Shown piece by piece: positions 1-37,152 of a stretch of DNA of 64,000 nt. A program made the position numbers and the translations under genes. The notes under the pieces are model-generated. The model ran no database searches, was not told where the DNA came from, and saw only the letters and a list, made by a program, of their open reading frames with translations. The stretch's first letter is position 1, and every line of letters starts with the position of its first letter. This stretch comes from Hermatobates lingyangjiaoensis (taxonomy: Eukaryota; Arthropoda; Insecta; Hemiptera; Hermatobatidae): NCBI GenBank assembly GCA_026182355.1, contig JAPFBL010000167.1:526001-590000 (forward strand), written 5' to 3'.

Positions 1-61
1 GGGAAAACAAGACTAAGATCTTTCAACCGTAACAAGCGGTCTTCGTCAGAGTCAAAAACCC
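1..61 (-). ncRNA. Hammerhead-like motif, family A copy 1
   Basis: Read on the minus strand this copy has CTGACGA, one extra A, a GACCG/CGGTT stem-loop, GAAA, the palindrome GATC, then TT and AGTC. The bases just before CTGACGA are GACT, which pair with AGTC (stem I). GGG and CCC about 10 bases further out pair again. This matches the hammerhead core with a minimal stem III. The single base between CTGACGA and stem II is not in the textbook core, so activity is inferred, not shown. The copy is cut by the window edge, so its outer flank is unknown. Confidence 0.55.
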
Positions 62-1675
62 AACTGAGTCAAAAAACTTTCACGTGTTTATGTGAAATCT
101 TTTTATACATACATACATAGAAGTGGGATATCCACTTAAACGTGCATATGGCAACATGTACTCCTGATGTCAAGTGACGTTAAAAACTTGCGCAGATGGC
201 ACACCAAAACACACAAGCCTAAAGAAAATACTATTTCAATTGTAACGTAGACCTAGCATCACCAAACTTTCAAGAACACCATACCTTCCATGTTTACGTG
301 AATCTCTTACCACTTCTTATATAGCACTAATGATTTCCCTCACTTTTCATTTTCTTTATTTAAAAAAGAACGTTGTACTAATTTAGGCATTAATGAAAAA
401 CAAAATAGAAAAACACTACAGAAAGACAAGTTTTATTTACTAAATATCATTTTTTCAACATTCAGTACTTTTTTCAAATTCATACATATTAAAACTACTA
501 ATTTAGTAATAACTTATTCAATAACAAAATTATAAATTGAAATATTGATGATCAAAAGGAAAAAAACTTTCATATTAAGGGGAGATTGAAACGGGAATGG
601 GTTATTTTCATATTTCAATTCATTGTCTTTTTTCCTTAAATGAAACCCTGACTCGTCATTTTACTAAATCCAGAAACACTAAAACGTTATAGAGCCATCG
701 TGGAAGAGTTGGAGAATAAGTATCACTGAACGGAATACAGTCCACGTAATATTCACGCTGCCGTCAGATACGTGTTCCCTGTTCTTTCTAACTCTCATCC
801 CTCAAGTTACAACCACGCAATAGTTAGAACTATACTTCGAGAGATGACTTACTTGGGGCTCGACATAAAACAATAAAAAGAACGGAACAAAACAGACGCT
901 ATAAACTTTTATTTCATTCACCTGATCTTCAAAATTAACAACTGACAACAAACTACTACTTTACACAACTGTGATTTTGCTCATGTGGGTATACGACATT
1001 GTGACTTGGGAAGCTACAAAGCATACCAATTCTCATAGTTTACAAACAATTCAATCCAAAATATTTCAAAACATTCTTCATTGCATTTTCTATACATCGT
1101 ATCAAACAATTTATACTGACCTAAAGAATCCAAACAGTTCAACAAGTTGCAGTACTTCGTTGACAAAGACTTACACTAAAATCTTCCAAACAAACGAAAT
1201 CATTATTCCTAAAAGTATTGTCTAAAATATCTCGGGAAAACCGCGAAACCGTTTGAAAAAGATGTGGCCAAGAGACTTATTTCTGTGAACTGCTCTTAGT
1301 GATTTCGTTTCTTTTATTTATATTTTAGTATTTATTTTTATCCTACATTATTATTACTTAGTTCCCACTCTAAGAAGTGTAATCACAGGATAACATCTTC
1401 CCTCGTCTCTCTTCTGTAATCAATAACCTGCATCAGTGTTTCCAACATCACTGGTAATGTTATTTTTACATTGTTGTAACTTATATACCAAAAAAAAAAG
1501 TTGTTTTATTAAATTTAATACGTTATCACCACGTTATAATTATTATTCTAGATAAACCTGAAGATTGTCACTATTTTTTCAAGAAGAGTTGTTCATATTA
1601 ATGACACATGTTTATATAAACTTTTTTCCATAATTAATAATAACTTATAAAAAGATTTGACATAAATACGTGAAA
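62..1675. other. AT-rich intergenic or intronic DNA, nothing recognised
   Basis: I see no gene, RNA or recognisable element here. The short open frames are AT-rich and lack domain signatures. If the NLK exon at 36 kb belongs to a gene continuing in this direction, this would be intron. Confidence 0.5.
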
Positions 1676-1707
1676 TAACAATCAATGATCAAACTACAAT
1701 AAGAAAT

Positions 1708-1768
1708 GGGAAAACAAGACTAAGATCTTTCAACCGTAACAAACGGTCTTCATCAGAGTCAAAAACCC
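1708..1768 (-). ncRNA. Hammerhead-like motif, family A copy 2
   Basis: The minus strand has CTGATGA, then a stem-loop whose arms keep pairing despite a base change from copy 1, then GAAA, GATC, TT and AGTC. Stem I (GACT/AGTC) is intact, as are the outer GGG/CCC. N7 differs from copy 1 (T for C), which a hammerhead core allows. Confidence 0.55.
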
Positions 1769-1880
1769 AACTTTACTTTACTTTACTTTACCCAACTGAA
1801 GATCTTAGTCTTGTTTTTCCCATTTTCTTATTGTGGTTTATTATAATATCATTGATTATAATAACTTATATAAATCAGTT

Positions 1881-1940
1881 GGGATTTGACTATGACGAAG
1901 ACCACTTGTTGCGGTTGAAAGATCTTAGTCCTTTTCTCAT
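1881..1940 (+). ncRNA. Decayed hammerhead-like motif, family A copy 3
   Basis: The plus strand keeps GAAA, GATC, TTAGTC and the stem II region, but the box reads ATGACGA instead of CTGACGA. Loss of the invariant C3 predicts no cleavage. Kept as a family member showing decay. Confidence 0.45.
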
Positions 1941-1955
1941 TTCTTATTTATGTTG

Positions 1956-2790
1956 AATATATTGAATACACTTGTTAATATATAAAGCGATATAATGGTC
2001 CCCTGTATTTCTCTAATTAGTACAGTGCAGAAACATCTTGATTAGTTAGAACCAACAAACTTCTTTTATATTTAACAATCTAAACAGTTTCCTCAATATT
2101 TGAGTTACTTTTATAAGTAAATAAACGTGATTGATACGTTAAGATAATTCCACTGTCGTCAGTCGATTCTATATCACCAGACTAGTTAGCTGAGAAACAC
2201 GTTCATTTTAGCACGGTTGAATTTACAGCGATTTATCGGTGTCCACTCAGCTCTATTCATGAGGCCACTAATAATAAATCTGCAACGTCACAAGGTCAAA
2301 TAATTTAAGGAAATGAACTCCTGATTCGACAATTAGTTTTTTTTAATGATCAAACATTAAAAAGTAAATTTAACACCACAATTACTAATGCCTTGACAAA
2401 GGTCTCAAAGCGGAACACCAATCCACGAAAAATTAATTATTGTTCGACGAAAATGTGAAATTCTTTAATGTTTTTTCAGTAACTGCAATAAAAGAAGATA
2501 TTTATAGGTTTCTTGCTTTAAAGTGTTTGGAAAATCTAGACAAATTAAAAAAAAAAAGGATCAATTTAGAAAGTAATACCATTGGAAACAGTGGAATCTT
2601 TGAAAAGTCAAATGGTTGAAGTACAACTTAGCTGGAACTTTAGAAAGAATAATAAAAGTATCCACAGCGAATTATGTAAATATTGCATTACATCAACTAT
2701 CGTAAATGGAAAGGTCCTTTCTAAACAGTCGTTAGAACTATAACAGATGCTGTTCGAATTGCGCTGTTGATTTAAAGTATTTTCATGTAT
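1956..2790. other. AT-rich DNA, nothing recognised
   Basis: No coding signature, RNA gene or element boundary was found. Only small poly-A/T runs are visible. Confidence 0.5.
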
Positions 2791-2794
2791 AGTT

Positions 2795-3042
2795 GGGGGG
2801 GGGGGAGGTTAGCTCAGTGGTTAACATACTCACCTCTGAAGTGATAGGTCCAGGGTTCGATACCCACCTGGCCCTCGATTTTTTCACGCGGGAGGTGAAT
2901 AAATCTGAGCACGTCATCCCTCGAAGAGAACGTTAAAACCATCGGTCCGAGCCTGTACGATGTCAGGTGTTCATTAAAGATCTCTATTCTAAATATACTT
3001 GAGTAAAGGGAAAACTTAATACTCCCAATGTAGAATCAACAG
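2795..3042 (+). repeat. tRNA-derived SINE, copy 1
   Basis: After a poly-G run the sequence reads like a tRNA: an A-box region TTAGCTCAGTGGTTAA and a B-box GGTTCGATACC about 45 bases later, then CACCTGGCCC. The roughly 180-bp body that follows (GGGAGGTGAATAAAT, ACGTTAA, TGTACGATGT) recurs at 23.64-23.87 kb, so this is a dispersed family rather than a functional tRNA. The expected promoter is the internal RNA polymerase III A/B box pair. Confidence 0.75.
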
Positions 3043-6000
3043 GTAATGTGGCTCGGCTCGCCCATTACTACAATGGGTGCCAAATGATAAATGAGCCACC
3101 ATTTCTGCCCCTAGAACAGCTTTAAAAGGTGAAAGCCTTATAAGTATGGTCGTTCGGAAACAAACAAAGAAATAATCAATTTTCAGGTATATACTTATAT
3201 TATTCTTCGTAACATAAGTAAACATTACATTGTACCTGATTCAACAACTTTGGAATGAATTAAAATGATCCTTAAATACACGATTACCAAAGTTTAAAAA
3301 TATGATAAAATAAAAAAAAAAGTAACTATATTTACTTCATTCTTTGTTAAATACACTATAACACAAACTAGGTGTTAAATTCCAGGTTTACTTAGTATTA
3401 TTTTTCAGAAAAAGTTACTGAAATCCGGGACTTGAGAATTTGTTCTTAAACCAAGACCCAGAGATTCCTGATAAGAGCCCAATACCTGATAACACATTAT
3501 CAAATTATCCTCGATAAAATTACCGATAATTAAATGTAATGTTCTATTTACATTAAATCCAGAGAATAACTGCAACCATTGGATGGTTGTGAATAACAGG
3601 GATACTCACTCACAAGGGGAATATTGACACATACTAGAAGGTGGCCGAATACCACATATCCTATCAGGAGGGAGAGGATGGCATTCAGAATGTTGACGAG
3701 GTATGATTACCTGCATGCCACCTTCAACGAATTGGGGTTGTGGCCCTGTTACATCCTCTGCGCCAGTCCACGCATATTTCTACTACGGCGAGACACTTAA
3801 TATTCCCCATATGCAAGTCAATTTTTACAAGATAATATCAGAAAAAAACTTATTTTGGCTACCCAGACAAAATGATTGCATCCTAATAGTGCACCTTAGC
3901 TGTGTTTTAAAAAAAATTAGTTAGTTATATTTTTTTTAGATGATATTATCAATCTACTAATGATCATTATTGAAAGGATTCAGCACAAATTAATTAACCT
4001 AAATGTAATTAATGTTACATTTATCTATAAATTGGTAGATGCCTTGTACCAGTTTGGTACATTGTACAAGGCATCCATATTGCAATCAGCAGTTACATAA
4101 GGACATTGTCATATACTTAGGTCAGTATATTTTGATTACTGGCAATTAATTAGCCACAACGAAAAAATTTATTTGCAGTTTACCAAATATAATAAATGCC
4201 ATTTCCTTGAAGATTGAACTGTCGGTTGATTATTATCTTTCTTAAATTCGTAGGTTTCCAAAAATAGGCCTTATTAACGTTATTTCAGTTAACAAAATTA
4301 GGAAATTAGATACAAGTCAATGATAAGGAAATCATTTTAAATGCTAGCCTAATGTACGAATATACGACGTTACTAATTAGTTAAAGCATAAACATTTGAT
4401 AACGTCTTACCATGTACGATATTTCTTGGTGCTCGATCTACCCGTTTCAGATTGATCCATTTTCAACAGCAAATTGTATAAGAGGCTTATTGGTTATTAT
4501 ATAAAAGGCTTATTGTGATTAGTGTAATTGTTTTGCTCGAAACCAATAATACAAAACTCTTAGATCAGTTGCTCTTATAGATGGGAAATGTCCGAAATCG
4601 GACATTGGATAAACTCCATCAATCATATGTGATTTAACTACTTATCAACAATGTATATTCAAACTTCGTGATTTCCTTACTCCGACATGATTCTGATATC
4701 ATTAATTTGTATTTAATATATGACGTAAGGTCTACATTTTGAAGCAACATTTATAAGAAAACAACTAATCTGAGGTATCCCTGGAAAACTACAAAAAGTA
4801 GATTAGTACCTGCCAGTGACGGTTATCTAAAGTTTACATTCTACTTTGATTCTAAATTTTGTTATGTGGAGGAATGTAAAATTTGTGATACATTGGAAGA
4901 AAACGTAAACCTTATTATTCCAAGCCTGCTGGTTGGAGACTCTATGAATAAACTTAAGTATAGGAAACATTAAGTCACCCCTAAAGTATAATCATGTTAA
5001 TAAGTTCAGTCAATGATAGCTGACTTTGCCTAAAAGAGGCGGAAACTTTGACAGGCTTACTTTGTCACAGTCAAGCAATCTGCTATAATACACTCAGGAC
5101 ACTTTAATAAAATTCACCCGACACCTCTAGAAATACGAGAAAGTTAAAAAAAAAACGTACCAGTAAGTTTAAAAGGGAATTTATTCTTTACGTTGCCAAT
5201 TAATATATATATTTAGGGTGTTTACAATAGGGCAATGGTAGCCGCAGTACTTAAATTACTTGAACCCCTTCTATTAATAATAATAAATGAGTGGTGACTT
5301 TCTTTTTTCCATCCTACCTCTCTATTAGAAGTAAAATTGCTCAAATGGCAGTTTATTTTCAGTAAAAAAACTGTTAATCCTATCGATAACTCAAATCAAA
5401 ACAAAATACTTAGTTATATGAATAAAGTGCATAAAAGAAACTTTTCTCTTTACGTCGTAGATACATTTATTTGAAATATTAAGAGAAAAAACAACATATT
5501 TTCTCCCTGCTACCAAACACTCCTCTTTCCTCCTCCTACAGCCATCAACCCTCTTATTCCCTTTGTGAAACAACACCTTGAAAACAACATCCTATGACTA
5601 AAACAATAATACTATTTACAAGGTAAATACAAAAAAAGTTCATGTGAGACGCCGAAGGACTCTCATCTAACTAATTATAATTTTACCAGCAATTATATTA
5701 TTATACTTCAATTATATAATTATAATTAATGTAAACAATTACATTAATTACCTTCAATAAATAATTAAATTGATGCTCTTAATGTTGAGAAGGAACTAAT
5801 TGGAATAAACTACCAATACTAATAATCATTGCTTTAAATATTTTCAATTTAAATAAAATTATTTAAATAATCATGTATTTTATTTTTGCTTTATACTCGT
5901 GTTAGACAGAGTAGTCCTTGTAGAGCAGACAGAAATCTGCAATTGAACTTTACTTCACGAAATTATTATTTACCAATAAAATAGATCTCTTCAATTTTCT

Positions 6001-7020: not shown

Positions 7021-7023
7021 ATC

Positions 7024-7951
7024 ACTAGAAAGTACAGTAACAACATACGTTCATCTCTAACTTACGTTCAACCGATTGGAACTTAAATAAACGTACGTCG
7101 AGAATCGTTTGTATTCCCAGTTAAACTCAATCTTCTATAACTCATAGACAAAAGAGTAGAACGAACAGTAAGTAACAACTTCTGTTCATTTCTAACTTAC
7201 GTTTGACCGATCGGAACATAACTAAAACGTACGTTGAGAATCGTCTGTATTCTTAGTTAAACTCAATCTTCTATAACTCATAGACACCAGACTAGAAAGT
7301 GCAGTAACAACATACGTTCATCTCTAACTTACGTTCGACCGATCGGAACTGAAATAAACGTACGTCGAGAATCGTCTGTATTCCCAGTTAAACTCAATCT
7401 TCTATAACTCATAGACAACAGACTAGAAAGTGCAGTAACAACATACGTTCATCTCTAACTTACGTTCGACCGATCGGAACTTAAATAAACGTACGTCGAG
7501 AATCGTCTGTATTCCCAGTTAAACTCAATCTTCTATAACTCATAGACACCAGACTAGAACGTACAGTAAGGTAACAACTTACGTTCATTTCTAACTTACG
7601 TTTGACCGATCGGAACATAACTAAAACGTACGTTGAGAATCGTCTGTATTTTTAGTTAAACTCAATCTTCTATAACTCATAGACACCAAACTAGAAAGTG
7701 CAGTAACAACACACGTTCATCTCTAACTTACGTTCGACCGATCGGAACTTAAATAAACGTACGTTGAGAATCGTCTGTATTCTTAGTTAAACTCAATCTT
7801 CTATAACTCATAGACACCAGACTAGAACGTACAGTAAGGTAACAACTTACGTTCATTTCTAACTTACGTTTGACCGATTAGAACTTAACTAAAACGTACG
7901 TCGAGAATCGTCTGTATTCCCAGTTAAATTCATTCTTTTATAACTCATATG
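7024..7951 (+). repeat. Seven-unit satellite of two monomer types
   Basis: Monomers start near 7024, 7155, 7291, 7422, 7553, 7690 and 7821, marked by CTAGAA. Units are about 131 or 136-137 bp. Shared blocks are TCTAACTTACGTT, CCGATCGGAAC, CGTACGT, GAGAATCGT and CTCAATCTTCTATAACTCATA. Type a has GTGCAGTAACAACATACG; type b has extra bases (CAGTAAGGTAACAACTTACG) and ACATAACTAAAACG. The order is a-b-a-a-b-a-b, a small higher-order pattern. The last unit decays near 7935-7951. Confidence 0.9.
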
Positions 7952-9120: not shown

Positions 9121-9124
9121 AATA

Positions 9125-9186: not shown

Positions 9187-9316
9187 ACTTATTGTGGTTT
9201 AAACAATATTATATATATATATATATACCTGATAAACGGAAATACGATCCAAACTGGACACAATACGAGTAGTTACTAGCCGTTGCGTCTACAACGTGCT
9301 TGGTCTCTCTTTCTCT

Positions 9317-9401: not shown

Positions 9402-9404
<3 letters not shown>

Positions 9405-11124: not shown

Positions 11125-11165
11125 TTTATCCTGATGACGACGGAAGTTGAAATATAGATGTAAGT
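11125..11165 (+). ncRNA. Hammerhead-like motif, family C copy 1
   Basis: CTGATGA at 11131 is followed by one C, a GAC-GGAA-GTT hairpin (one G-U pair), then GAAATATA and GATG. GATG pairs with TATC just before CTGATGA (three Watson-Crick pairs plus one wobble). The self-complementary ATAT sits where stem III would be, with A as the cleavage base. The layout matches families A, B, D and E although the sequence differs. Confidence 0.5.
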
Positions 11166-18959: not shown

Positions 18960-19050
18960 GTCAACGGCCATAGACTTGTTGAATACTTCACGGTTCTCAT
19001 TAAGCAAGTTAAGCAACAATGAGCGTATAGTGATTGGATAGGTGACCATA
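18960..19050 (+). repeat. 5S rRNA-derived sequence, copy 1 (SINE-like or pseudogene)
   Basis: The order of blocks follows animal 5S rRNA: CAACGGCCATA near the start, TTGAATAC, CGGTTCTC, AAGTTAAGCAACA, then TTGGATAGGTGACC. The 5S polymerase III internal control region corresponds to the AAGTTAAGCAACA...GGATGGGTGACC part. Many substitutions and the absence of a tandem 5S repeat argue against a working gene. Confidence 0.65.
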
Positions 19051-19592
19051 TGAGGACAATATATGCCATTGTCATCTCAGTAATATGGCTGCTACAAAAC
19101 ATGGTTAAAATGGGTGCTGAATAACAATTGAACCACACATAATGCCTTGAAAAACCTTTAAGTGCAAGCGTTCTTAATATATCCTATTTAATAAACTAAT
19201 AAATCTTGATATAGCTACAGATATCTGTATCAATCTAATATAACAAGTTAAAACCATCTTACCTCATAAACCACCTTGAGTGTTCTTCTAAAGAGTTCCT
19301 CTTTAAGAGGAACAATATTCAAAACCGTTCGATCTCATAAAGTAATCCGGCGTTATCACTGGAAACAGTGTGGGACTTGAGTGCTTGCATGCTGCCCGAC
19401 AATAGTGAAAATCGGAGGAAAGTACTGAAAATCATAGGCATAACCATTGATATTTTATAAAAGAGATGGAAAACCTTTGCAACCTGTCTCTCAGAAAGAT
19501 GTCAGTCTAGAGTCTATACCGTCAACATTATGACTTCTGAATCAGGTAAAATTTATTATATCCAATATAAAATTAAGCTACTGATATCAACT

Positions 19593-20572: not shown

Positions 20573-20940
20573 ATCGCTTCTTCGTGAGCCATAGCTTCAC
20601 TCTTTCCATGAGACGGAAAGTCTGCGAGTGTTGCTAATGAATATAAAAGAAAAAATAAAAAGTTAGTAAAACATGGCGCATTTGAATGGGACAGTTGGCA
20701 GGTTCAACGTAAGCCACATACGTGTTTATTGCACTTTATGTAGACCAGATTTTGGATTTTTCCCATTACATGAAATTGATCAATATCAATGAGTAAAAAA
20801 GCAACATTTTATAGCGATTATTGTCATCATTCTTTTTTAACGCCTGCTGCCATTTCCAGGGAACAGAACCATTATTATTTATGATTTGGCACCTATAGTA
20901 GCCATGGGCAATCCACATGTGGTAATGCCAATGGTACGTG

Positions 20941-21034
20941 CTTTTCACCCATTCACTTCTTAGCCCCGCCTAATGTTGCCTAACTTCGATGATCTAATGA
21001 GAACCGATGTATCCAACATAGGTATAACCAATGC
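20941..21034 (-). repeat. 5S rRNA-derived sequence, copy 3
   Basis: On the minus strand the order is TTGGTTATACCTATGTTGG, CGGTTCTCATTAGATCATCG, AAGTTAGGCAACATTAGGCG, then AATGGGTGAAA. The ATTAGATCA variant of the 5S GTCCGATCA segment is shared with copy 2, so both probably come from the same derived family rather than from separate 5S genes. Confidence 0.65.
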
Positions 21035-21159
21035 CTGAATATCATTAAATAAGGATATACATTGCATTATCTCCGTTTTCTTTGTTTTTGTTTTTGTAAT
21101 AATCATTTCAATTGAATTCCCAAACTATGAATAGAAATCTGTGAGAATGATAGATTTTA

Positions 21160-21872: not shown

Positions 21873-21958
21873 TGATAAAACGAAATACGATCCAAACTGG
21901 ACACAATACGAGTTCGAGATTAACAAAGAGCAACACACAAAGTAGGGAAACACACAGA

Positions 21959-21990
21959 CTCAAATTTTCGGGTAATCCGTCTTCAGGAGA
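21959..21990 (-). ncRNA. Hammerhead-like motif, family D copy 3
   Basis: Minus strand: CTC, CTGAAGA, one C, GG-ATTA-CC hairpin plus C, then GAAAATTT and GAG. CTC/GAG form stem I. AATT is the self-complementary stem III candidate with T as the cleavage base. Confidence 0.5.
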
Positions 21991-22056
21991 AAAGAGAATG
22001 GGAGACCAAGCACGTTGTAGACGCAACGGCAAGTAACCAACCCCTCCCATTCTCTT

Positions 22057-22091
22057 TTCTCCTGAAGACGGATTACCCGAAAATTTGAGTC
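22057..22091 (+). ncRNA. Hammerhead-like motif, family D copy 4
   Basis: Plus-strand partner of the copy at 21959-21990: CTC, CTGAAGA, C, a short GG/CC hairpin, GAAAATTT, GAG. The stem II of this pair is weaker than in the 29.36 kb copy (GGA-TTA-TCC). Confidence 0.5.
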
Positions 22092-22142
22092 TGTAAGTGT
22101 GTTTCCCTACTTTGTGTGTTGCTCTTTGTTAATCTCGAACTC

Positions 22143-22176
<34 letters not shown>

Positions 22177-22200
22177 ATGATCAAACCACAATAAGACAAT

Positions 22201-22261
22201 GGGAAAACAAGACTAAGATCTTTCAACCGTAACAAGCGGTCTTCGTCAGAGTCAACAACCC
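22201..22261 (-). ncRNA. Hammerhead-like motif, family A copy 5
   Basis: The minus strand has the full core: GACT, CTGACGA, A, GACCG/CGGTT hairpin, GAAA, GATC, TT, AGTC, with outer GGG/CCC. It differs from copy 1 by a single base in the stem I internal loop. One of the best-preserved copies. Confidence 0.6.
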
Positions 22262-22340
22262 AACTGACTTTATATATATATATCAAATCTAAAAAAACAG
22301 TGAGAAATCAGGACTGATTCAGCTGTTAGACTCAGACTCC

Positions 22341-22395
22341 GTTGAACTCTGACGAAGACCACTTGTTTTGGTTAAAAGATCTTAGTCATTATTCT
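22341..22395 (+). ncRNA. Decayed hammerhead-like motif, family A copy 6
   Basis: CTGACGA is present at 22349, but the GAAA box reads TAAAA and the upstream stem I strand is AACT rather than GACT. Predicted inactive. Confidence 0.4.
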
Positions 22396-23395: not shown

Positions 23396-23443
23396 GTGTA
23401 TATGTATATATATATATATATGATCAAACCACAAATAAGAAAT

Positions 23444-23504
23444 GGGAAAACAAGACTAAGATCTTTCAACCGTAAGAAGCGGTCTTTGTCAGAGTCAAAA
23501 ACCC
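23444..23504 (-). ncRNA. Hammerhead-like motif, family A copy 8 (G8 mutated)
   Basis: All elements are kept except that the box reads CTGACAA. G8 is catalytic in hammerheads, so no cleavage is expected from this copy, unlike its partner arm. Confidence 0.5.
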
Positions 23505-23531
23505 AACTGAGTCAGAGTCAAAAACTCAGTT

Positions 23532-23592
23532 GGGTATTTGACTCTGACGAAGACCGCTTATTACGGTTGAAAGATCTTAGTCTTGTTTTCCC
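23532..23592 (+). ncRNA. Hammerhead-like motif, family A copy 9 (intact core)
   Basis: Full core: GGG outer stem at 23532, GACT, CTGACGA, A, GACCG/CGGTT hairpin, GAAA, GATC, TT, AGTC, CCC at 23590. It is in the arm opposite the G8-mutated copy. Predicted cleavage lies after GATCTT, before AGTC. Confidence 0.6.
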
Positions 23593-23637
23593 ATTTCTTA
23601 TTGTGGTTTGATCATTGATATAAATATATATATACCA

Positions 23638-27924: not shown

Positions 27925-28005
27925 CTCATGTTGAATACACCTGTTCCCACTAGATGACAGAAGTTAAGCAACTTTGGTGTGTTGACCAATTGGACAGGTG
28001 ACACC
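27925..28005 (+). repeat. 5S rRNA-derived sequence, copy 4
   Basis: CATGTTGAATACACCTGTTC, GATGACAGAAGTTAAGCAAC and TTGGACAGGTGACAC follow 5S rRNA order. It closely resembles copy 1 and includes the control-region equivalent. The following GTTGAGCTCTCAGTAATATGGC also matches the tail of copy 1 (CTCAGTAATATGGC), which shows that the copies share a non-5S tail, as a 5S-derived SINE would. Confidence 0.7.
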
Positions 28006-28322: not shown

Positions 28323-28391
28323 TTATATATATATAAAGATTTCACATAAAAACGTGAAATAACAATCAATGATCAAACCACAATATCAACT

Positions 28392-28452
28392 GGGAAACCA
28401 AGACTAAGATCTTTCAACCGACACATGCGGTCTTCGTCAGAGTCAAAAACCC
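28392..28452 (-). ncRNA. Hammerhead-like motif, family A copy 10
   Basis: CTGACGA, GACCGC...CGGTT hairpin, GAAA, GATC, TT, AGTC and GACT are all present on the minus strand. The stem II loop is changed (CATGTGT) while the arms are kept. Confidence 0.55.
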
Positions 28453-28483
28453 AACTGACTCTCACAACTGACAACAGTCAGTT

Positions 28484-28544
28484 GGGTTTTTGACTCTGAC
28501 GAAGACCGCTTGTTACGGTTGAAAGCTCTTAGTCTTGTTTTCCC
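28484..28544 (+). ncRNA. Hammerhead-like motif, family A copy 11
   Basis: Core intact except that the stem III palindrome GATC is GCTC. If the motif acts as a dimer, this copy would pair poorly with itself. Confidence 0.5.
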
Positions 28545-28572
28545 ATTTCATATTGTGGTTTGATCATTGATA

Positions 28573-29214: not shown

Positions 29215-29460
29215 ACAAACAAATTTTCAGATAATCCGTCTTCAAGAGGAAATAACAGTGAGAGACGAAGGACGCCGAAAATGCAAATGCAGAAGACCGT
29301 CCTGGCAGCTGACGGTCTCCTGCTGTTGTGTTTATATCGTGCTGGGTCTGCCTCTCTCATTTCTCCTGAAGACGGATTATCCGAAAATTTGAGTTAATAA
29401 GTTTGTCACTTATTCTCTTTGTGTTACTATTCTTCGTTTTTGAACTTGATTGTGTCCAAT
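29215..29460. repeat. Family D inverted pair
   Basis: A decayed minus copy (about 29221-29255) faces the best plus copy (29360-29394). The 3' flank TTCTCTTTGTGTTACT.TTCTT and GATCGACTTTCCG match the flanks at 9.4 and 21.9 kb. Confidence 0.65.
29360..29394 (+). ncRNA. Hammerhead-like motif, family D copy 6 (best copy)
   Basis: CTC, CTGAAGA at 29365, one C, GGA-TTA-TCC hairpin, GAAAATTT, GAG. Stem I CTC/GAG and stem II GGA/TCC are both perfect. The self-complementary AATT plus T occupies the stem III and cleavage position. Confidence 0.55.
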
Positions 29461-29538
29461 TTGGATCGACTTTCCGATTTTAAGCATATATATACATGAC
29501 TTAAATATCACAAAAAACAATATATATTAATTAAAATG

Positions 29539-29574
29539 CTCTAAGGCCTTTCGTCACAACATCATCAGAGAGAT
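29539..29574 (-). ncRNA. Hammerhead-like motif, family E copy 1
   Basis: Minus strand: CTCT, CTGATGA, one T, GTT-GT-GAC mini-hairpin, GAAA, GGCC, TT, AGAG. CTCT/AGAG is a perfect stem I; GGCC is the self-complementary stem III candidate. This is a fifth unrelated sequence with the same plan. Confidence 0.55.
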
Positions 29575-29872
29575 AAATGCTGATTGATATCTTCAAGATT
29601 GTTGGCATCCCTGTCTGAATTTAATGTTCCTTAACTTAAAGGAACTTACTTAAAATAACTTACTTATTTCTTTTATTAATATTTCATCTAGTTTGTAGAT
29701 GAAGTTTATAGTTAATATTAATAAAAGAAATAAGTAAGCAGACCAAGACTCCTTTAAGTTAAGGAACATTAAATTCAGACAGGGATGCCAACAATTTTGA
29801 AGATATCAATCAGCCAGGTTAACTGGTTAACTTGTTATTATGTTGTTTTTTTTTTTTTTTTGTTGCATTTAA

Positions 29873-29907
29873 CTCTCTCATGATGTTGTGACAAAAGGCC
29901 TTAGAGC
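29873..29907 (+). ncRNA. Decayed hammerhead-like motif, family E copy 2
   Basis: The opposite arm keeps GTTGTGAC, GGCCTT and AGAG, but the box reads CATGATG and GAAA is AAAA. Predicted inactive. Confidence 0.45.
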
Positions 29908-30000
29908 ATTTTAATTAATATATATTGTGTATTGTGGTATTTAATTCATATATTATATCAAGAGTTATTGTTGATTATTAATTTATATATATATATATAT

Positions 30001-30156
30001 AAATTGAACATAAACACGTGAAATAACAATCAATAATCAAAACCACAATATGAAATGTTGTCCGAAGTTCGTCATCAGGAAGAGAGTAGAAGGGAAGAAG
30101 AGGTACGTAGCGACTCTCCTTCCACCCCCACTCTTGAACGCACGTATGTGAAACCT

Positions 30157-30211
<55 letters not shown>

Positions 30212-30700
30212 AAAACGATTTCACATAAACTCGTGAAATAACAATCAATGAAAACCACAATATGAAAACAAGACTAATATCGTTCAACCGTGACGAAGAC
30301 TACTTGTTACGGTTGAAAGATCTTAGTCTTGTTTTCATATTGTTGTTTGATCACTGATATATATATATATATATATATAGAGTCGCCGCTCTACCTTCCT
30401 TCGGGACTCTTCGCCTCCTAATGACGACGATGGTCAAAGTATAGAAGTCAGTTATTTCTTTGTCTCTCTCTGTGCTACTTTCTTTTTAATCGGTTTATAT
30501 ATATATACTTAAAATAAACAGTGACAAATAGACTGAAACATGAAACATAGACGACCGTAATGGCGGTCGAAATATTGAAAAGTGAGTCTTTTCTTATGTT
30601 TCAGTCTATGTGTCACTGTTTATTTTAAGTGGTATCTGTCCTGCCGGACCGTTTTTCGTTTATCATGGTATATATATATATATATATATATTTTATTAAA
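30001..30700 (+). repeat. Composite repeat block, first copy
   Basis: In order: an AACATAAACACGTGAAAT flank, a CTTCGTCATCAGGAAGAGAG segment, (CA)n(TA)n at about 30158-30211, a chimeric family A copy (about 30290-30345), a family C-like copy (about 30415-30455), and a second palindrome with arms ACTTAAAATAAACAGTGACA at 30508-30635 whose centre holds GACCG-TAATGG-CGGTC followed by GAAATATTG. The whole block recurs in the same order at 32385-33060. Confidence 0.75.
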
Positions 30701-30864
30701 AATTAGCCATTAACTTTGTTCTTTTCGAGTTATTTTCAAGTTTTCTCACTATGGATTTCCACCTTTCTGGTAAAATAAGTAATTCACAAAGATTTATTCT
30801 TGACTTCCATTTTATTAACTAACAAGTTTTAACTATAACAAACAATAACCTTACATAAAATTAC

Positions 30865-30900
30865 ATACGACGTTCGGTCAGCTCTGACCATCTTCAGGCA
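30865..30900 (-). ncRNA. Hammerhead-like motif, family F
   Basis: Minus strand: GTGC, CTGAAGA, one T, a perfect GGTCA-GAGC-TGACC hairpin, then GAACGTC and GTAT. Compared with the others one A of GAAA is missing, leaving GAA plus CGT (ACGT expected). Stem I is weak, with wobble pairs. A single copy in this window, 0.6 kb from the Penelope-like coding remains. Confidence 0.4.
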
Positions 30901-31235
30901 CTATAACAATTCATAACAGACTCAAATACAAAAATAAAACTATCTAAATTATTAACATAATTATTAACATCCTACAGAATAAGAAATATCTACATGAATT
31001 GAGTGGGAGGTTATACAGGTTATAACGGTCCTCAGGGTTGCTATTAATTAAAGTATACGAATTTGAAAATAATCAGATGAACTTAATTTATCCTACGTTC
31101 CTGCTGCAGTTATATTCTGAGAAGCTCGTGTTGGTTGTTCAGGTTCGGCTTCTTTTTCTATGCAAGCGCTTCCAGATGTGTAGCCTTCTCAGGTCATTTC
31201 TTGATAAAGTAATGTGTTTTTTATTCATCTTCCCT

Positions 31236-31400
31236 GTTAGCTTGAGGCTATGGGTGCTTGCGTATGTCTTTCGGGGCACCTGCAGTCAGGTGCATTGTTA
31301 ATCCTGGATATGTTGTTGCTGTAGAACCAATGTAGCATGATCCATATGCATGATCCATATGTAAGGCATGATCCATTCAACCATATAGATGGTACTTGTA
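31236..31400 (-). pseudogene. Penelope-like element, inverted endonuclease-end fragment
   Basis: Minus-strand bases 31240-31345 are an inverted copy of 32170-32280: the block with CATTGGTTCTACAGCAACAA, GGATTAACAATGCACCTGAC and TGCAGG. It encodes the HWFYSNNIS-like and NAPDCRCPE-like residues in one frame. It lies back to back with the plus-strand remnant that follows, as in the inverted arrangements common in this window. Confidence 0.55.
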
Positions 31401-31439
31401 TTATCAAATTGATGGAGTGGCAATGGGTCACCATTAGGT

Positions 31440-32290
31440 GTTTTTCGCCAACTTCTATATGTGCCATATTGAGATTTAGTGCTTGCACAAGAATCGATAA
31501 GCAAACCAACATGTATTGTGATATGTCGACGACTGTTTATTGGCCACAAATTAGAACACATCGACACCTTAAGAAATGCATTCGAAGCAATCTCTGTCCT
31601 CAAGTTCACAATAGAACTCTGTACGGAAAAACAAAACTTCCTGGATGTCACTATTAATGAAAACATTGATCACTATACAACATCAGTTTACGTAAAACCT
31701 ACAAAAGGTGGAATCTATTGAACGTCGGAGTGAATGCCCTAACAGGTATAAAGATGGAACAGTACGAGCATCATACATCGAGCTTTCAAAACTCTTCAAA
31801 TTGGTTCTTTTTATATTGCAATAGAAAGGATAAAACAAGTTTTATTACAATGGATACAGCAATAGGTACTTTGACAATCTCTTACACAAATATATTTCCA
31901 GATTCAAACACGAAGGACCAGCCACACACCAGGTACAATACAAACGGTCTACTATAGAAACAATTTTCCAATCATTAAAAACCGATGAAAGAATACTGAA
32001 GACCATATTAAAAACAATACAAAGTGCAACAATTCGGAGACAACTGAAGATTAGAATTACTATAGAAGTTTTGCACAACACACTTAATAGTCAAGAATAA
32101 TTTACTGCAAAAACACTCTTGCAAAGACCAATGTGGTATACCAATACAATTGTACCATAGGAAACTGTGATCCTTAAATCATGCTACATTGGTTCTACAG
32201 CAACAACATTTCAGGGATTAACAATGCACCTGACTGCAGGTGCCCGAAAGAACATACGCAGAGCACCCATAGCAACGAATAAATTTAAAC
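31440..32290 (+). pseudogene. Decayed Penelope-like element: RT C-terminal part and GIY-YIG region
   Basis: The RT catalytic box YVDD is encoded at 31522-31533. After a frame change, HIDTLRNAFEAISVLKFTIE, NFLDVTINEN and TTSVYVKPT follow; these are the characteristic Penelope RT C-terminal strings (IKFT.E, FLDV, T.VYVKPT). Further on, after stops and shifts, a frame near 32170-32270 reads YIGSTTTTLS-like then LTMHLTAGAPKEHT, the GIY-YIG endonuclease region of these elements. At least several frameshifts and stops prevent expression. Penelope-like elements carry hammerhead ribozymes in their terminal repeats, which fits the motifs around it. Confidence 0.75.
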
Positions 32291-32384
32291 AGTGATAAAA
32301 ACACAACCTAAATTAAACTGTGGACGTAGGATTTAATTATTATAGTATCATATCTGATTATTTTCAATATTCGTTAGTATTTAT

Positions 32385-33016
32385 ATATATAATATTGAAC
32401 ATAGACACGTGAAATAACAATGATAACTCAAAACCATCAATATGAAGATATTGTCTAAGTTCGTCTCAGGAAGAGAGTGAGGGAAGAAGGTATATGTTCA
32501 CTTCACCCACTTTAACGCACGTATGTGAAACCTTTTCAAACCACCAAACACAAACTATATATAATATATATATATATATATATAAACGATGTTCACATGA
32601 ACTCGTGAATAACATAGTGAACCCAATTGAAAAGTAAATCGTTCAGACCGTGACCGAACTACTGTTACGGTTGATAAGATCTTAGTATGTTTCATATTGT
32701 TGTTTGAACTATATTATTATTATATTATAAGTCGCGCTCTACCTTCCTTCGGGACTCTTCGCCTCCTAATGACGACGATGGTCAAGTATAGAAGTCATTA
32801 TTTCTTTGTCATCTCTCTGTGCTACTTTCTTTATCTAAATAGGTTTATATATAATACTTAAAATAAACAGTGACAAATTAGACTGAAACATGAAACATAG
32901 ACGACCGTAATGGCGGTCGAAATATTGAAAAGTGAGTCTTTTCTTATGTTTCAGTCTATGTGTCACTGTTTATTTGAAGTGTATCTGTCCTGCCGGCCGA
33001 TTTCGTTTATCAGTTA

Positions 33017-33056
<40 letters not shown>

Positions 33057-33060
33057 TCTT
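32385..33060 (+). repeat. Composite repeat block, second copy with many single-base gaps
   Basis: Same order of parts as 30001-30700. The 32400-32720 half lacks many single bases relative to the first copy, while 32740-33000 is nearly identical, including the GACCG-TAATGG-CGGTC centre and the CCTAATGACGACGATGGTCAA piece. This pattern could be unpolished sequence or an unmerged second haplotype rather than a true genomic duplication. Confidence 0.7.
33011..33056. repeat. (TA)n microsatellite
   Basis: About 20 TA units with one irregularity at the edge of the composite block. Confidence 0.9.
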
Positions 33061-33576
33061 TGAGAAATGATAAAACCATACGACAGCTATTATAATTCAA
33101 TAGTTAATTAATAGTTAATAGTTAATTTAATAGACGCACGAATAATACAAAGTTTTTAATTTGTCTGCCTGATATCATCAGTCTTTCTTTACTTATCTTG
33201 TCGATAATTCACTTGACATATCGACCATAGTAAAGTGTGTGGTTCTCCTATTTATAGTTTAAATATTTGTATCATTCTTAGTGTTTGAATATTACAACCT
33301 CGATTCCATAAAAATGAATGCAATGTTTTTTTTATGGAGATGGACAACTTAAAGCATTTGTTGTTAGTTTCCGTTATAATTCATCATCTACTAAATTTAA
33401 ATAAACAAATTTAAAAACAACCACCTATGGTGTATCTAGATCGTTATTATTGCCGAAGAATAGTGAAATCCACACCAATTTTATCTTTATGGCACAATTT
33501 CTATTTCTATAACATAATTGGTAAATTCTAACGTAGTGCAGTTATTACTCGTATGTCATATTTACTTATTGTAGGG
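33057..33576. other. Nothing recognised
   Basis: AT-rich sequence. TAGTTAATTTAATAG-type short repeats occur at about 33099-33132. Confidence 0.4.
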
Positions 33577-33614
33577 TAAAAAGCTAATCAAATGGTCTCC
33601 ACATATAAAAATTT

Positions 33615-33670
33615 AATCGTATAAACAATGCGTTTCAAACACGTAGTGTTCTTCAGGCATTAACTACAAC
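33615..33670 (-). ncRNA. Hammerhead-like motif, family B copy 2
   Basis: Minus strand: CTGAAGA, AACAC-TAC-GTGTT hairpin, then TGAAACGCATTG. The palindrome CGCG has become CGCA. Confidence 0.45.
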
Positions 33671-33689
33671 AGTTGTACCACTGACACTC

Positions 33690-33749
33690 AATCGTAGTTA
33701 ATGACTGAAGAAAAACACTACGTGTTCGAAACGCGTTGTTTATACGATT
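33690..33749 (+). ncRNA. Hammerhead-like motif, family B copy 3
   Basis: CTGAAGA, a hairpin with arms AACAC/GTGTT, GAAA, CGCG, TT. An outer stem I helix AATCGTA (33690-33696) pairs perfectly with TACGATT (33743-33749) across an internal loop, as in long-stem hammerheads that use loop contacts. Two extra A lie between the box and the hairpin. Confidence 0.5.
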
Positions 33750-33800
33750 ATATTTTTATATGTGGAGACCATTTGATTAGCTTTTTACAATACAATAATT

Positions 33801-36064
33801 AGTAAATTTTAGTTCACTAAGGCATAACATATAAAATAAAAACAAAATTAGATCGTGATTTACATAGTCATGAGTTACAGTAGGTATTAAAAAAATCTAT
33901 GTTGAAATTATTCCTTTAAATAATAAAGCATCTGTCTCTGCAATGCTCTGTTAAATATATGACTTATGTTTTAGTCAATTGGTATGAAAATAAAAGGCTT
34001 CCGCAATCAACACGTGGGAAGAAATCAATAAAGTAAACCAACTATTAGTGGCTTTTAGTTAATATTGGAACATTCACGGGATTGTGAGCAAGTCCCTATA
34101 CCGTAATAATAGAAAACTGCCCAGGCGGAAAATACATCCACTGTTTCTTTTTATATGAATATAATGCCTCGAAAAGTGAATTTTATTCAGGTATATCAAA
34201 AGACTACAAGATGAAACCAAATCCAGTATAAAATTGAAACAATTCTAATTAGTCAAAAAACAAAAAACAATCCTATCATTTGCCAAACAAAACACAAGAA
34301 TTTCGTTAAGGTGTCCAATTTCTGATAAGCTAATTCCATAACCTCAGAAATAAGATATTTGGATTTAAAAAAAAAATAAACAGAATATTTATAGATGTTA
34401 ATGGGTGAAGTGGTTCATATAAATGACGTAGTTAGATAGCAATCAAATATATTATTTTCAAAGCTAGTGTTTATTTGTGTCTTAAGAATTCAGAATAATT
34501 ATTCAATTTCTAAATTTTTTTCAGGTTCTTGGAACTGAGAATTAAGGTTTACATTTTGGTAGTTGTTGGTATTTTTTTATTTCTAAATGTATAGTACTTC
34601 ATTTTGGTTTTTCTTAATTTGAATTGCTTCAAAAGTTGATGACAGAAATGACTTAAAAGACTAATAGTATTCTTTTATTTCTTAAGGTATTCGAAAATAT
34701 ATCTTTTCTTGCTTATTTAATCTTGTAATAGGTCAAATTTTCAAGCATATTTGAAATTTTTATTTAAAAAAAAATGGAAACTTAATGATTTATTTACAAT
34801 AAAAAACGTCATTTTGGTCGATAGGAAAAGAGCTGCATTAGAAACGATGGACTAGACACTGACAACGAAAAGTCTTGGATGATGAACGTCGATACCAGAT
34901 ATTCTTTATTCCTCCCGAAGATGGAGTCTGGGTGCCTGTTTTTTTTTGTTTTTGAGTTTCAAAATGTAATTAGTTATCCGTTTCAAAAAAATATGTATAC
35001 AAACCAAACTTTTGGAAACGGTTGAAACAAGCTAAATGAACTCCCCGAAAGAAGACAAGGAAACATTGTAGTTTTACACTACGATATTTTTTCATCAGGA
35101 GAATGGATCTGTCCGAAATTTAAAGTAATACTCAACTAGTTTACAACAAAAGATCTAAGAAATATTTGCATGCTACATTCACAGGTTATACATACTTGAC
35201 GGTTCAGTATGAAAGAGTGAAGACTTGCCTCTCAGACGGCTCACTTCCTCTGATAATGACGGGTGTCAAAATAGTGTTAAAGGTTTCTTGTTTTTTCCGC
35301 TTAACACACTTCTTCCATATGTATGTGTACCACCCGCATAATATCCCTTCAACTATCAAACTACTCCGTACTTCTACTAAGCTCATTAATAAATATTCCC
35401 CATTTTCCGGAAATGCATGAGTCTTTCAACATCTATCCTCCAAATATGTTTGGTAAACAATTTTTAAACTTTTTTATATTTTCAAAATGTAGAAACTGTT
35501 TTGGATAATCTGTATATAATTTGTGAATGAGTGACCCTTTCATCTTGAAATATTCATGCAGGAACATTGTTGACTTCTTAGTCTGAGAAAAGTGTATTTA
35601 AAAAGGATCTTTTGTTTGACAGTATAGTGGTACCTTCTTATGACTGTAATGTTTCGGGTAGATATTGCATGTAATGTAACTTTTGCGTTGAGCCAAACGC
35701 GAGTTAATTGCTATGATTGCTATATTAAAAGACGACAGGTATATTGAGGTGCTTATCATTCATTTGAACGTTGTTGTTGCCTGCATTTGAATGTCATTCA
35801 AGGCTGTCACAGTGGTTTAGACACATTCATGTGTAACTAGAGGGTTGTTACAGTGTAATATAACACGCACTGGAGAATATACAGGTAATTTGACTACTCA
35901 GAGTCAGTCAAGTTGTCACTCTGAAGATAATTGTTACTTGGTCGAATGATTTGAGTTCTACTTCAGAATTATATGTGTCCTTTATCTCTAAATCTTTCGC
36001 ATTTGGTCACAAGACTGTAGGAAGTGTTTGGTATAAGGTGAAGCATGCGGTAAACATATGCTAG
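33801..36064. other. Mostly unrecognised; one decayed family C-like piece
   Basis: At about 35250-35290 the plus strand reads CTGATAATGACGGGTGTCAA then AATAG, a decayed family C-like piece. No kinase exon or other gene is visible, although this should be NLK intron if the exon at 36.07 kb is real. Confidence 0.4.
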
Positions 36065-36070
36065 AGTTAC

Positions 36071-36327
36071 CAGACAACTCCGAAGGCGCCGTAGCCGATG
36101 GGGCGGTCGGGCTGGAGGTCTGCCGGAGGCTGCTGGGGAGCTGGCAAAGGTGCATGGTAGTACGCCACGGTGGCTGCCGCCACTGCCGGCTGTTGTTGCT
36201 GCTGGGTGGCCCGACCCGCCCGCGAAGGTCCTACCACGGCCATTGACTCAACTATGGCCCATATCTCGCACTCAATCCTTTCAATCCTTGGCCAGACACA
36301 CACACGCGAGCAAATCGCAGCTGCCAA
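36071..36327 (-). CDS. NLK: Nemo-like kinase (NLK), first coding exon
   Basis: NLK is a conserved proline-directed serine/threonine MAPK-like kinase acting in Wnt and Notch signalling in nucleus and cytoplasm. This minus-strand frame ends with LQPDRPIGYGAFGVVW, the start of the NLK kinase domain including the glycine-rich ATP loop (GYGAFG). Upstream is a low-complexity A/Q/P region (ATQQQQQPAVAAATVAYYHA), as usual for NLK N-termini. The frame would stop right after the W codon. A donor GTAACT begins at 36070, so the W codon is split TG|G and the kinase domain continues in later exons, not seen here. The start is uncertain: ATG at 36327, or the internal ATG at 36243 (MAVVGPSRAG), which begins the likely conserved part. 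The exon is GC-rich against AT-rich surroundings. Symbol based on family recognition. Confidence 0.8.
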
Positions 36328-36440
36328 TCAACCACCCACGTTACCACCAGACACCTCAGACGGGAACTGGCGCTTTAAAGCCCCCACCCGAACAAACTTG
36401 TCTGGCTAGCCGCAAGGAGCGCTACTAGTCTGACCAACAA
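36328..36440 (-). promoter_or_regulatory. Probable NLK 5' leader and proximal promoter region
   Basis: GC-rich sequence continues upstream of the exon (CACGCGAGCAAATCGCAGC, GGCGCTTTAAAGCCCCC on the two strands), then the composition drops back to AT-rich near 36440. No TATA box or initiator can be assigned with confidence. The call rests on position and composition only. Confidence 0.35.
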
Positions 36441-36989
36441 AAACGCTTCTTCTACATGTCGTCAGATAGAAGCACTAATCAGCCGCAAACCAAAATGTCT
36501 GCTCTGAAGATTATTAGAAATTCAGTTCTTTCAAATCATTATGTCCACACTCTCGGACAAATACCTGACAAGCTCGTTTATAGCTTAAAAATGAGTAGAA
36601 AATAGCATCTGCTTAACACTCGAAGTTAAATTTAGCGAAACAATAATAACTATATAACAATATAAAAATGAAAGTAATTTAGTAATAACTTTAATATTTT
36701 TTCCTGTAGTAACGCTTTATTTTTTGTCTAACTTACACTCAAACATGTATTGCAGAATTTAACATTTATTTTTTCCAAGTACCCTATATCTGTCAAATTC
36801 AATAATTTCTGTTAAGCCATATGACTTGAAAAGGATTTAGTACATTTTGAGTACACAAATGTACTCAACCATCCAACCATAAATATACATTAAGGATCGT
36901 CTAAAAACATCAAAAACAGATTAAGACATCCCAAAGAAGTGTGAATTGGTCAAAATAGATTTTTTGTTCATGATTATTCAACATTACTT
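36441..36989. other. AT-rich DNA upstream of NLK exon, nothing recognised
   Basis: No further exon or element was found. Confidence 0.4.
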
Positions 36990-37040
36990 ATTCTGAGGTA
37001 AAATGGATAAACAAACAAAAGTCTCCACACAAATGAAGTT

Positions 37041-37090
37041 TTATTCAACGCGTTTCGAACACTTTGTGTTCATCATCAGGAAGACAGATA
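37041..37090 (-). ncRNA. Hammerhead-like motif, family B copy 4
   Basis: Minus strand: CTTC, CTGATGA, one T, GAACAC-AAA-GTGTTC hairpin (perfect six pairs), GAAA, CGCG, TT, GAAT. Stem I has three pairs (TTC/GAA). Confidence 0.55.
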
Positions 37091-37107
37091 TAATTTGTAT
37101 TATAGTG

Positions 37108-37152
37108 TCTTCCTGATGATGAACACAAAGTGTTCGAAACGCGTTGAATAAA
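37108..37152 (+). ncRNA. Hammerhead-like motif, family B copy 5
   Basis: Plus-strand twin of copy 4 with the identical core: CTGATGA, T, GAACAC-AAA-GTGTTC, GAAA, CGCG, TT, GAAT. The identity of both arms argues for recent formation of the palindrome or for gene conversion. Confidence 0.55.

Follow-up and report, generated by a model that had tools for sequence, protein, structure and literature searches.

Head-to-head pairs of short hammerhead-bearing repeats in Hermatobates lingyangjiaoensis, likely non-coding derivatives of Penelope-like elements

Small hammerhead variants of Penelope-like elements (PLEs) are reported to cleave as dimers, going by the title of the 2017 paper of Lunse, Weinberg and Breaker (RNA Biol 14:1499). 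A hammerhead plan of this dimer type is carried by several families of short repeats in the stretch of DNA analysed here, a window of 64,000 nucleotides from the hemipteran Hermatobates lingyangjiaoensis (assembly GCA_026182355.1, contig JAPFBL010000167.1, i.e., contig 167, positions 526001-590000), whose genome assembly comprises 909,949,117 bases in 1629 contigs. As far as that title goes, both sets would be the same kind of PLE-tied small hammerheads, but the repeats described here lie in non-coding arms that are joined head to head and have one extra base after A9 of the core. The families are likely to be short non-coding PLE derivatives, for which copying in trans by PLE enzymes and RNA self-cleavage are predicted.

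Minimal type I hammerheads are scattered in animal genomes and in the pseudo-long terminal repeats (pLTRs) of PLEs, and their role is described as unknown in the available parts of two reviews (PMC7761336, PMC6155905). The accessible passages of Perreault et al. (2011, PMC3088659) contain palindromic stem III words, proposed dimers and a covariation of U3 with A8, all of which recur here; those passages hold nothing on element ends, tails or head-to-head pairing. In Poseidon of Anolis carolinensis (PAc), according to the available sections of Frangieh et al. (2024, PMC11167929), the tail extends from one start site of the reverse transcriptase (RT) to a second one, no apparent start-site difference is seen between the target strands in vitro, and the protein is predicted to be dimeric. 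The two RT start sites bounding a tail and the AT-rich targets are common to PAc and to the repeats of H. lingyangjiaoensis; however, PAc is a coding element found in tandem loci, whereas here non-coding pairs occur, nearly every scorable one having one of each end. In the PLEs of Adineta vaga, as described in the excerpts of Arkhipova et al. (2013, PMC3846280), a 31-bp tail is optionally present on one inverted pLTR, and the head-to-head inverted pLTRs, the optional one-sided tail, target repeats of 8-10 bp and junction palindromes all resemble the present elements. Unlike the several hundred thousand non-coding arms extrapolated for H. lingyangjiaoensis, the A. vaga PLEs are of low copy number, have coding open reading frames (ORFs) and include some solo pLTRs. 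Metazoan retrozymes, with 126,247 motifs in axolotl in the portion of Cervera and de la Pena (2020, PMC7229834) at hand, have type I hammerheads with a weak stem III as well, but they are arranged in tandem and form circles, in contrast to the inverted pairs ending at tail sites that are described below. At title level, the open-licence literature yielded no recognised account of non-coding PLE derivatives, solo pLTRs, head-to-head hammerhead pairs or a role for RNA dimers. The motif itself represents new members of the known PLE hammerhead class, and the elements are the new part.

Counts were obtained from the window and from a sample of 20 stretches of 10 kb (200,000 bases), namely bases 300,001-310,000 of 20 contigs, a choice that is arbitrary rather than strictly random; G+C is 31% in both. 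Further genome loci, among them PLE-bearing ones, are designated by L-numbers. The element arms are non-coding and about 90-165 nt long, too short for an ORF with RT and GIY-YIG endonuclease. Ten family queries built from single copies, the one for family A being a typed arm reading and three of them ending in some (AT)n, detected 126 arms in the sample, many of them partial and not all holding the whole plan; together they cover 11,141 bases, or 5.6%. Extrapolation to the genome gives about 232,000 arms of family A and 573,000 arms over the ten families and subfamilies, and an exact 17-base word from the family A core has 60,320 places in the genome. The arms are strongly oriented: same-family neighbours within 150 bp in the sample were head-to-head in 37 of 39 cases and tail-to-tail in two, with none on the same strand, and among 100 listed of the 60,320 core-word places 19 had a neighbour within 150 bp, head-to-head in 18 and same-strand in one. 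With a loose threshold for family A, which produced 73 arm matches in window and sample, 21 of 25 neighbours at this distance were head-to-head.

The 3′ ends of family A arms cluster at arm positions 90-94 and 122-124, and those of families B and H likewise fall into two groups, about 35-40 nt apart, while the ends of D are scattered, 18 of 32 arms belonging to neither class. These four families supplied 39 near head-to-head pairs, and in 22 of them both ends could be classed; one long and one short end were combined in 21 of these 22 (A 14/15, B 5/5, D 1/1, H 1/1), with one short/short pair and no long/long pair. The sole exception to this tail rule among the scorable near pairs is the pair at 23420..23619 of the window, in which both arms are short-ended. 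As judged by eye, the extra piece of 30-40 nt can fold into a small hairpin in A, B, D and H alike. By analogy with the described elements, a 3′ tail of 30-40 nt on one arm can be read as a PLE signature; what this genome appears to add is that insertion uses both RT start sites, one per arm, a rule not found in the available passages of Arkhipova et al. (2013) and Frangieh et al. (2024). The near-strict rule would link the arms of an insertion with the two RT start sites observed in vitro, and the 573,000 extrapolated arms would offer many natural replicates of the insertion product. The origin of PLE inverted repeats and the purpose of the ribozyme thereby become directly testable; the numbers also suggest that non-coding PLE derivatives may become as abundant as short interspersed nuclear elements.

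A run of (AT)n of at least 8 nt lies within 30 bp beyond the 3′ end in 33/51 cases for A, 13/19 for D, 9/13 for C2, 4/6 for G, 2/3 for C4, 2/3 for H and 3/11 for D2, compared with 2.7% of random stretches. Target repeats of 11-12 bp are present at the three insertions examined, i.e., two family B pairs, one of them in the window (Table 1), and the coding PLE of L035. At L011, GTATTTAGTTAA is found beside both ends of the family B pair, with 2-3 letters between repeat and element, and the 12-bp repeat TATCTTAATTAA surrounds the coding PLE in L035.

The genome also encodes PLE proteins. For GIY-YIG, 150 of 9198 candidates were scored and 142 matches resulted, many being weak and partial. In L031, one ORF piece has RVT_1 below the cut-off and another has GIY-YIG above it, and a head-to-head hammerhead pair lies about 600 bp away. 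L035 displays the full PLE layout, consisting of an inverted pLTR, a direct pLTR, the ORF and a second direct pLTR, with one long and one short outer end. Pfam returned no domain at E ≤0.001 in the long ORFs of L034-L036, and neither RT nor GIY-YIG at E ≤10 in L034 and L035; the identity of the 811-aa ORF of L035 was settled by its homologs in a protein search, 56 in number, of which 44 are marked RVT_1, 51 RVT_1 or PF26215, and 3 GIY-YIG. An 821-aa ORF with RVT_1 in L012 is 26% identical to it over 615 columns, including an aligned YVGST/YVGQT stretch, and is flanked on both sides by inverted UUGAAAA hammerheads. We take PF26215 to mark PLE proteins and the YVGST/YVGQT stretch to belong to the GIY-YIG domain. 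In L034, four different short hammerhead-type elements adjoin each other in (AT)n at 3940-4540, beside a coding PLE. The top GIY-YIG match, L029, lies in a contig (contig 1092, 26 kb) whose other ORFs look bacterial by eye and which may come from a symbiont or a contaminant.

The hammerhead plan exceeds what chance would produce. CTGANGA occurs 53 times in the window against 21.1 expected, and none of 100 shuffles had as many. A strict descriptor demanded, in this order, a stem I with 3 or more Watson-Crick pairs, CTGANGA, 0-1 nt, a stem II with 4 or more pairs, GAA, 1-13 nt, a base other than G and the second strand of stem I; it retrieved 28 sites in window and sample, whereas 47 permuted cores, which served as decoys, together gave 1. 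Most of the 28 are family A copies; a single unpaired base follows CTGANGA in 27 of them, and the stem III word is palindromic over its full length in 22. In a structure-blind test, CTGANGA sites with enough flank were grouped by flank similarity alone and folding was scored afterwards by a relaxed rule: the 194 sites of window and sample formed 8 repeat clusters, 6 of which had at least one folding copy, versus 2 of the 208 clusters formed by the decoys. Site by site, 39/194 CTGANGA and 22/3475 decoy sites folded. When no demand was made on the seven core letters, the frame was fitted 47 times in the window, the sample and eight PLE loci; 24 fits read CTGANGA, the second class was TTGAAAA with 5 sites, which is the paired U3-A8 form, and the remaining 18 were spread over 14 words. 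An Rfam search of the window, at the gathering threshold and then at E ≤5 (38 matches), returned no hammerhead family, and most of its matches were weak microRNA ones reflecting inverted repeats.

A first-pass annotation of the window had named six families, A to F, on this plan. All six places are real, and A-E are built as it described: CTGANGA is followed by one unpaired base, a hairpin, GAA, a self-complementary word (AGATCT, ACGCGT, ATAT, AATT and AGGCCT) and then A or T, and the listed stem I pairs, GACT/AGTC, TTC/GAA, TATC/GATG, CTC/GAG and CTCT/AGAG, are found as given. Family F (30897 minus), which had been given the same plan, is one A short, with GAACGTC in place of the GAAACGTC of a similar L031 copy, and its core looks damaged. 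The claim that the families share no flanks holds for most of them and fails for 30078 minus, which has the 3′ half of family A. The well-sampled families moreover have head-to-head arms and long/short 3′ ends in common, an architecture absent from that annotation. The attribution to Penelope ribozymes or a relative gains support from the element structure (head-to-head arms, one-arm 3′ tail, AT-rich targets in several families), as well as from the target repeats of 11-12 bp beside two pairs of family B and the PLE proteins in the same genome.

The plan was compared across 15 representatives, one copy per family or subfamily, which comprise A-E and ten more, F being omitted for the A missing from its core; they correspond to about 11 lineages, with C, C2, C3 and G in one cluster and D and D2 in another. 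The copies had been found via CTGANGA, and the rule for reading the palindrome looked for GAA plus a palindrome, while G10.1 and H17 were not selected on. All 15 have CUGANGA...GAA with a base other than G at position 17, core and GAA being part of the selection, and all 15 have G at 10.1 and, by a fixed rule, a palindrome of 4 or 6 nt directly after GAA; position 17 is T in 7, C in 5, A in 3 and G in none. Stem I has at least 3 contiguous pairs in 11/15, and stem II is able to pair at its first three letters in 13/15 (12 without E, whose loop would be 2 nt). When 3′ strands were swapped between families, 0/20,000 permutations reached the observed pairing of stem I or of stem II, a strength that is overstated, as related subfamilies are counted as independent and some copies were chosen by descriptors demanding pairing.

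The canonical layout, in which stem II follows A9 directly, is absent from the 15 representatives, all of which pair better with one base skipped: without the extra base the first three letters of stem II pair in 0/15, and skipping it lengthens the stem in 15/15. The extra base is C in 8, T in 6, A in 1 and G in none. Where it is T, A9-T-G10.1 reads ATG, and in family B the A of this ATG (37119) and H17 (37145) have the same spacing as in the accessible part of Frangieh et al. (2024). This reading and the family B spacing suggest that the extra base is what remains of the PLE start codon, and that those families in which it is C or A are no longer coding.

Core positions 3 and 8 vary jointly. 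The CCGACATGTTTC form of the plan (reverse complement of GAAACATGTCGG), belonging to the ACATGT families, has 1931 places genome-wide; a hand count among 100 listed places gave 56 with C3-G8, 43 with U3-A8, none mixed and 1 with C8. The two states are two stem II families, and they represent one or few events fixed by descent rather than 43 independent ones. TTGAAAA stands in the same frame in two PLE-linked families (L012 5182 minus and 8701 plus; L031 900 minus and L032 905 minus), and the fifth site, L017 7598 plus, is a lone candidate. Natural covariation from C3-G8 to U3-A8 is reported, and said to have already been proven active in vitro, in the available portion of Perreault et al. (2011). 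The coding PLE family of L033-L036 (e.g., L035 1087 plus) retains stem II, GAA, the palindrome AGCGCT and C17; its core place reads GCGAATGAAGA, in which C3, and with it the C3-G8 pair, is lost. Another family, represented by the head-to-head copies L012 9046 minus and 9331 plus and by L020 2390 plus, has TATGAAAAA at the core place, and its stem II letters differ between L012 and L020 with the pairing kept.

Within one molecule the stem III word cannot close on itself, or does so with just one pair around a 4-nt palindrome. Dimer formation is in keeping with the sequences, from which self-cleavage is predicted; it is not a new idea, being present in the title of Lunse et al. (2017), and palindromic stem III words occur in the available text of Perreault et al. 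(2011). The computed energy of the double hammerhead is -15.2 vs -6.3 kcal/mol for the monomer plan in family A and -14.7 vs -2.9 kcal/mol in family B, and the dimer minimum is lower than the double-hammerhead plan in both (A -21.8, B -23.3 kcal/mol); as model values, these energies neither prove nor exclude a double hammerhead. The tandem dimer layout envisaged in the first-pass annotation is ill-suited to this genome, because neighbouring copies are inverted and hardly ever in tandem. The one inverted pair that was folded, 28335-28571, gives a transcript predicted as a single hairpin of -150 kcal/mol, which buries the ribozyme.

According to the proposed mechanism, the RT and the GIY-YIG endonuclease of PLEs would copy the arms in trans. 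The enzyme would cut both strands of an AT-rich target, and on each strand copying would begin at either of two sites lying close together in the element RNA, with the formation of two arms that point apart and differ by the 30-40 nt between the start sites. This two-site, two-strand model is proposed because of the PAc results in vitro taken together with the tail rule, and it would involve two priming events per target, from two RNAs or from one RNA plus fold-back. The RNA would self-cleave after H17, most readily as a dimer whose stem III consists of two palindrome copies; inserted pairs would rarely cleave, because their arms pair with each other. A more speculative extension, which we regard as rather doubtful, is that the palindromic stem III acts as a template dimerisation site, bringing two RNAs to one PLE protein dimer, where each would prime on one strand of the cut AT-rich target, one from each RT start site. 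A two-RNA model is attractive because the palindrome is present in all 15 representatives, the PAc protein is predicted to be dimeric and dimer cleavage has been published, as the title of Lunse et al. has it. If true, every insertion would be a head-to-head pair with exactly one tail, the PLE hammerhead would have a structural job besides cleavage, and it would be explained why self-complementarity of the stem III word persists through changes of its letters.

The pair could instead be PLE-derived and yet stem from a single RNA, the complementary DNA (cDNA) folding back and priming itself on the palindrome, a possibility that we consider quite open although it falls somewhat short of probable. 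This is the origin favoured for PLE inverted repeats in the available part of Arkhipova et al. (2013), and the two arms of one pair share variants (20 vs a mean of 6.9 in shuffled pairs, 0/2000 as high), which fits one RNA, or two RNAs from one source locus; moreover, 12 of the 50 listed loci in which both arms are shortened (427 in all) form a perfect palindrome on the word of stem III. Junctions are, however, mostly scattered, self-priming alone leaves unexplained why one arm of a scorable near pair is the longer, and in vitro the PAc protein cleaves both strands of the target and extends them, as stated in the accessible portion of Frangieh et al. (2024). That the plan is a relic, used for RT binding or as a start-codon structure with no RNA cut, is unlikely; it would agree with the missing cut footprint discussed below, with the loss of C3 in the coding PLEs of L033-L036 and with PAc insertion by dead ribozyme mutants (available text of Frangieh et al., 2024), but GAA, a non-G at 17 and G10.1 are kept over about 11 lineages with different stems, and positions 3 and 8 change jointly from family to family, neither of which would be required for mere binding.

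Readings outside PLEs fare worse. Miniature inverted-repeat or foldback DNA transposons, with the arms as terminal inverted repeats and the hammerhead plan incidental, would account for the inverted arms, the target repeats and the many short non-coding copies; terminal inverted repeats should nevertheless end alike, while here one arm exceeds the other by 30-40 nt, the inner junctions lie at varying places, as with cDNA truncated at its 5′ end, unrelated families retain both plan and pairing and the coding PLE of L035 has the same layout, all of which makes this origin extremely improbable. Animal retrozymes, i.e., circular-RNA non-LTR elements with type I hammerheads such as those of mussel, coral and axolotl, are very unlikely too: the type I topology, the weak palindromic stem III, similar to axolotl HHR_Amex1, the low G+C and the very high copy number are shared with them, but retrozymes are described as tandem repeats of 150-450 bp, and same-strand neighbours within 150 bp amounted here to 0/39 (strict) and 1/25 (family A, loose), longer tandem spacings having lacked a systematic search; besides, the arms end at tail sites, unlike permuted circles. 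With a tail on one side only and hardly any tandem copies, both the transposon and the retrozyme readings are disfavoured.

Several observations weigh against short non-coding PLE derivatives carrying a dimer-type hammerhead, the reading preferred here. The tail classes were set after the ends had been seen, and 17 of the 39 near pairs are unscorable, with an end outside both classes through decay, truncation or membership of another subfamily; among pairs 150-1300 bp apart, 3 were scorable, 2 being long/short and 1 long/long. With the loose threshold, family A gave 3 tail-to-tail neighbours and 1 same-strand neighbour beside the head-to-head ones. None of the insertions of B (0/13), J (0/5) and I (0/2), i.e., 0/20 together, lies in (AT)n; in this sample the families outside (AT)n are those with T as the extra base. 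Among the PLE ORF loci found there is no coding PLE with family A-like ends, so that trans-copying is inferred. Stem I is weak in C2, C4, G and H, with 1-2 contiguous pairs and then a mismatch, as is stem II in C3 and G, which both fail to pair, and in E (2 bp). In monomer folding at 93 nt, stem II is favoured in 10/19 copies and stem I in only 1/19. Inserted copies of family A (arms at least 85% identical) have a core that differs from the arm reading at 5.3% of letters, against 5.7% for the neighbouring stretch 58-90; the decay is even, and no selection on the core was found within this family. No cut footprint was seen at arm 5′ ends, in a breakpoint pattern that sees first kept positions from 54 down to about 24 only and in which insertion of cleaved RNA would favour 54: in the 100 listed of 1859 junctions, first kept positions are spread over 27-54, with the highest count, 12, at position 46 and 5 at position 54. 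Because of the missing footprint, the even decay and the hairpin-folded pair transcript, any ribozyme activity is likely to occur in the source RNA, before insertion.

The features of the window are listed in Table 1.

Table 1. Hammerhead plans and head-to-head pairs in the window (positions within the 64,000 nucleotides).
Feature	Position	Strand	Details
Family A plan	23540..23582	+	GACT/AGTC, CTGACGA, extra A, GACCG/CGGTT, GAA, AGATCT, H17 = T
Family A head-to-head pair	23420..23619		arms 23420-23510 minus, 23526-23619 plus
Family A head-to-head pair	28335..28571		left arm long (arm position 124), right short (94); both flanks AT-rich
Family A head-to-head pair	22173..22387		left arm 22173-22267, short end in (AT)n; right arm partial
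Family A head-to-head pair	1651..1839		left arm long-ended; right arm partial
Family A head-to-head pair	30214..30358		one long, one short end
Family B plan	37110..37148	+	TTC/GAA, CTGATGA, extra T, GAACAC/GTGTTC, GAA, ACGCGT, T
Family B head-to-head pair	36984..37243		second plan copy 37079 minus; short/long 3′ ends; 11-bp target repeat CAACATTACTT on both sides
Family B head-to-head pair	49809..50010		long/short ends
Family C plan	11127..11160	+	TATC/GATG, GAC/GTT, ATAT, A
Family D plan	29363..29393	+	CTC/GAG, GGA/TCC, AATT, T
Family D head-to-head pair	21883..22126		in (AT)n; longer arm left; ends outside both scored classes
Family E plan	29539..29572	-	CTCT/AGAG, 2-bp stem II, AGGCCT, T
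Family F, degraded plan	30861..30903	-	stem II GGTCA/TGACC, then one A missing
Family H-related head-to-head pair	30509..30668		one short, one long end; absent from the first-pass annotation
Second family H-related head-to-head pair	32851..33012		one end long, other unscored

The window holds other features as well. Two tandem arrays, at 7024-7949 (units of about 131 bp, ~7 copies) and 38534-39604 (about 133 bp, ~8), have a retrozyme-like size, and no CTGANGA site is listed inside them. Two direct repeats, 43835-44596 and 48772-49492 (300 nt at 96% and 222 nt at 97%), lie ~4.9 kb apart in the same order and may be a local duplication or two copies of an element. A match resembling 5S rRNA, above the Rfam cut-off, is located at 20926-21035 minus, with weaker ones below the cut-off at 27927-27976 and 18960-19074 plus; short elements derived from 5S are a possible source. 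The region 55653-57929 minus contains a 758-aa open frame with PIF1-like helicase and 2B domains, which could belong to a Helitron or to a host gene. At 59489 minus and 60768 minus, a repeated CTGATGA stands in the conserved context CTTGCGTGCTCGCTGATGACAGTTG without a hammerhead fold and belongs to a different repeat.

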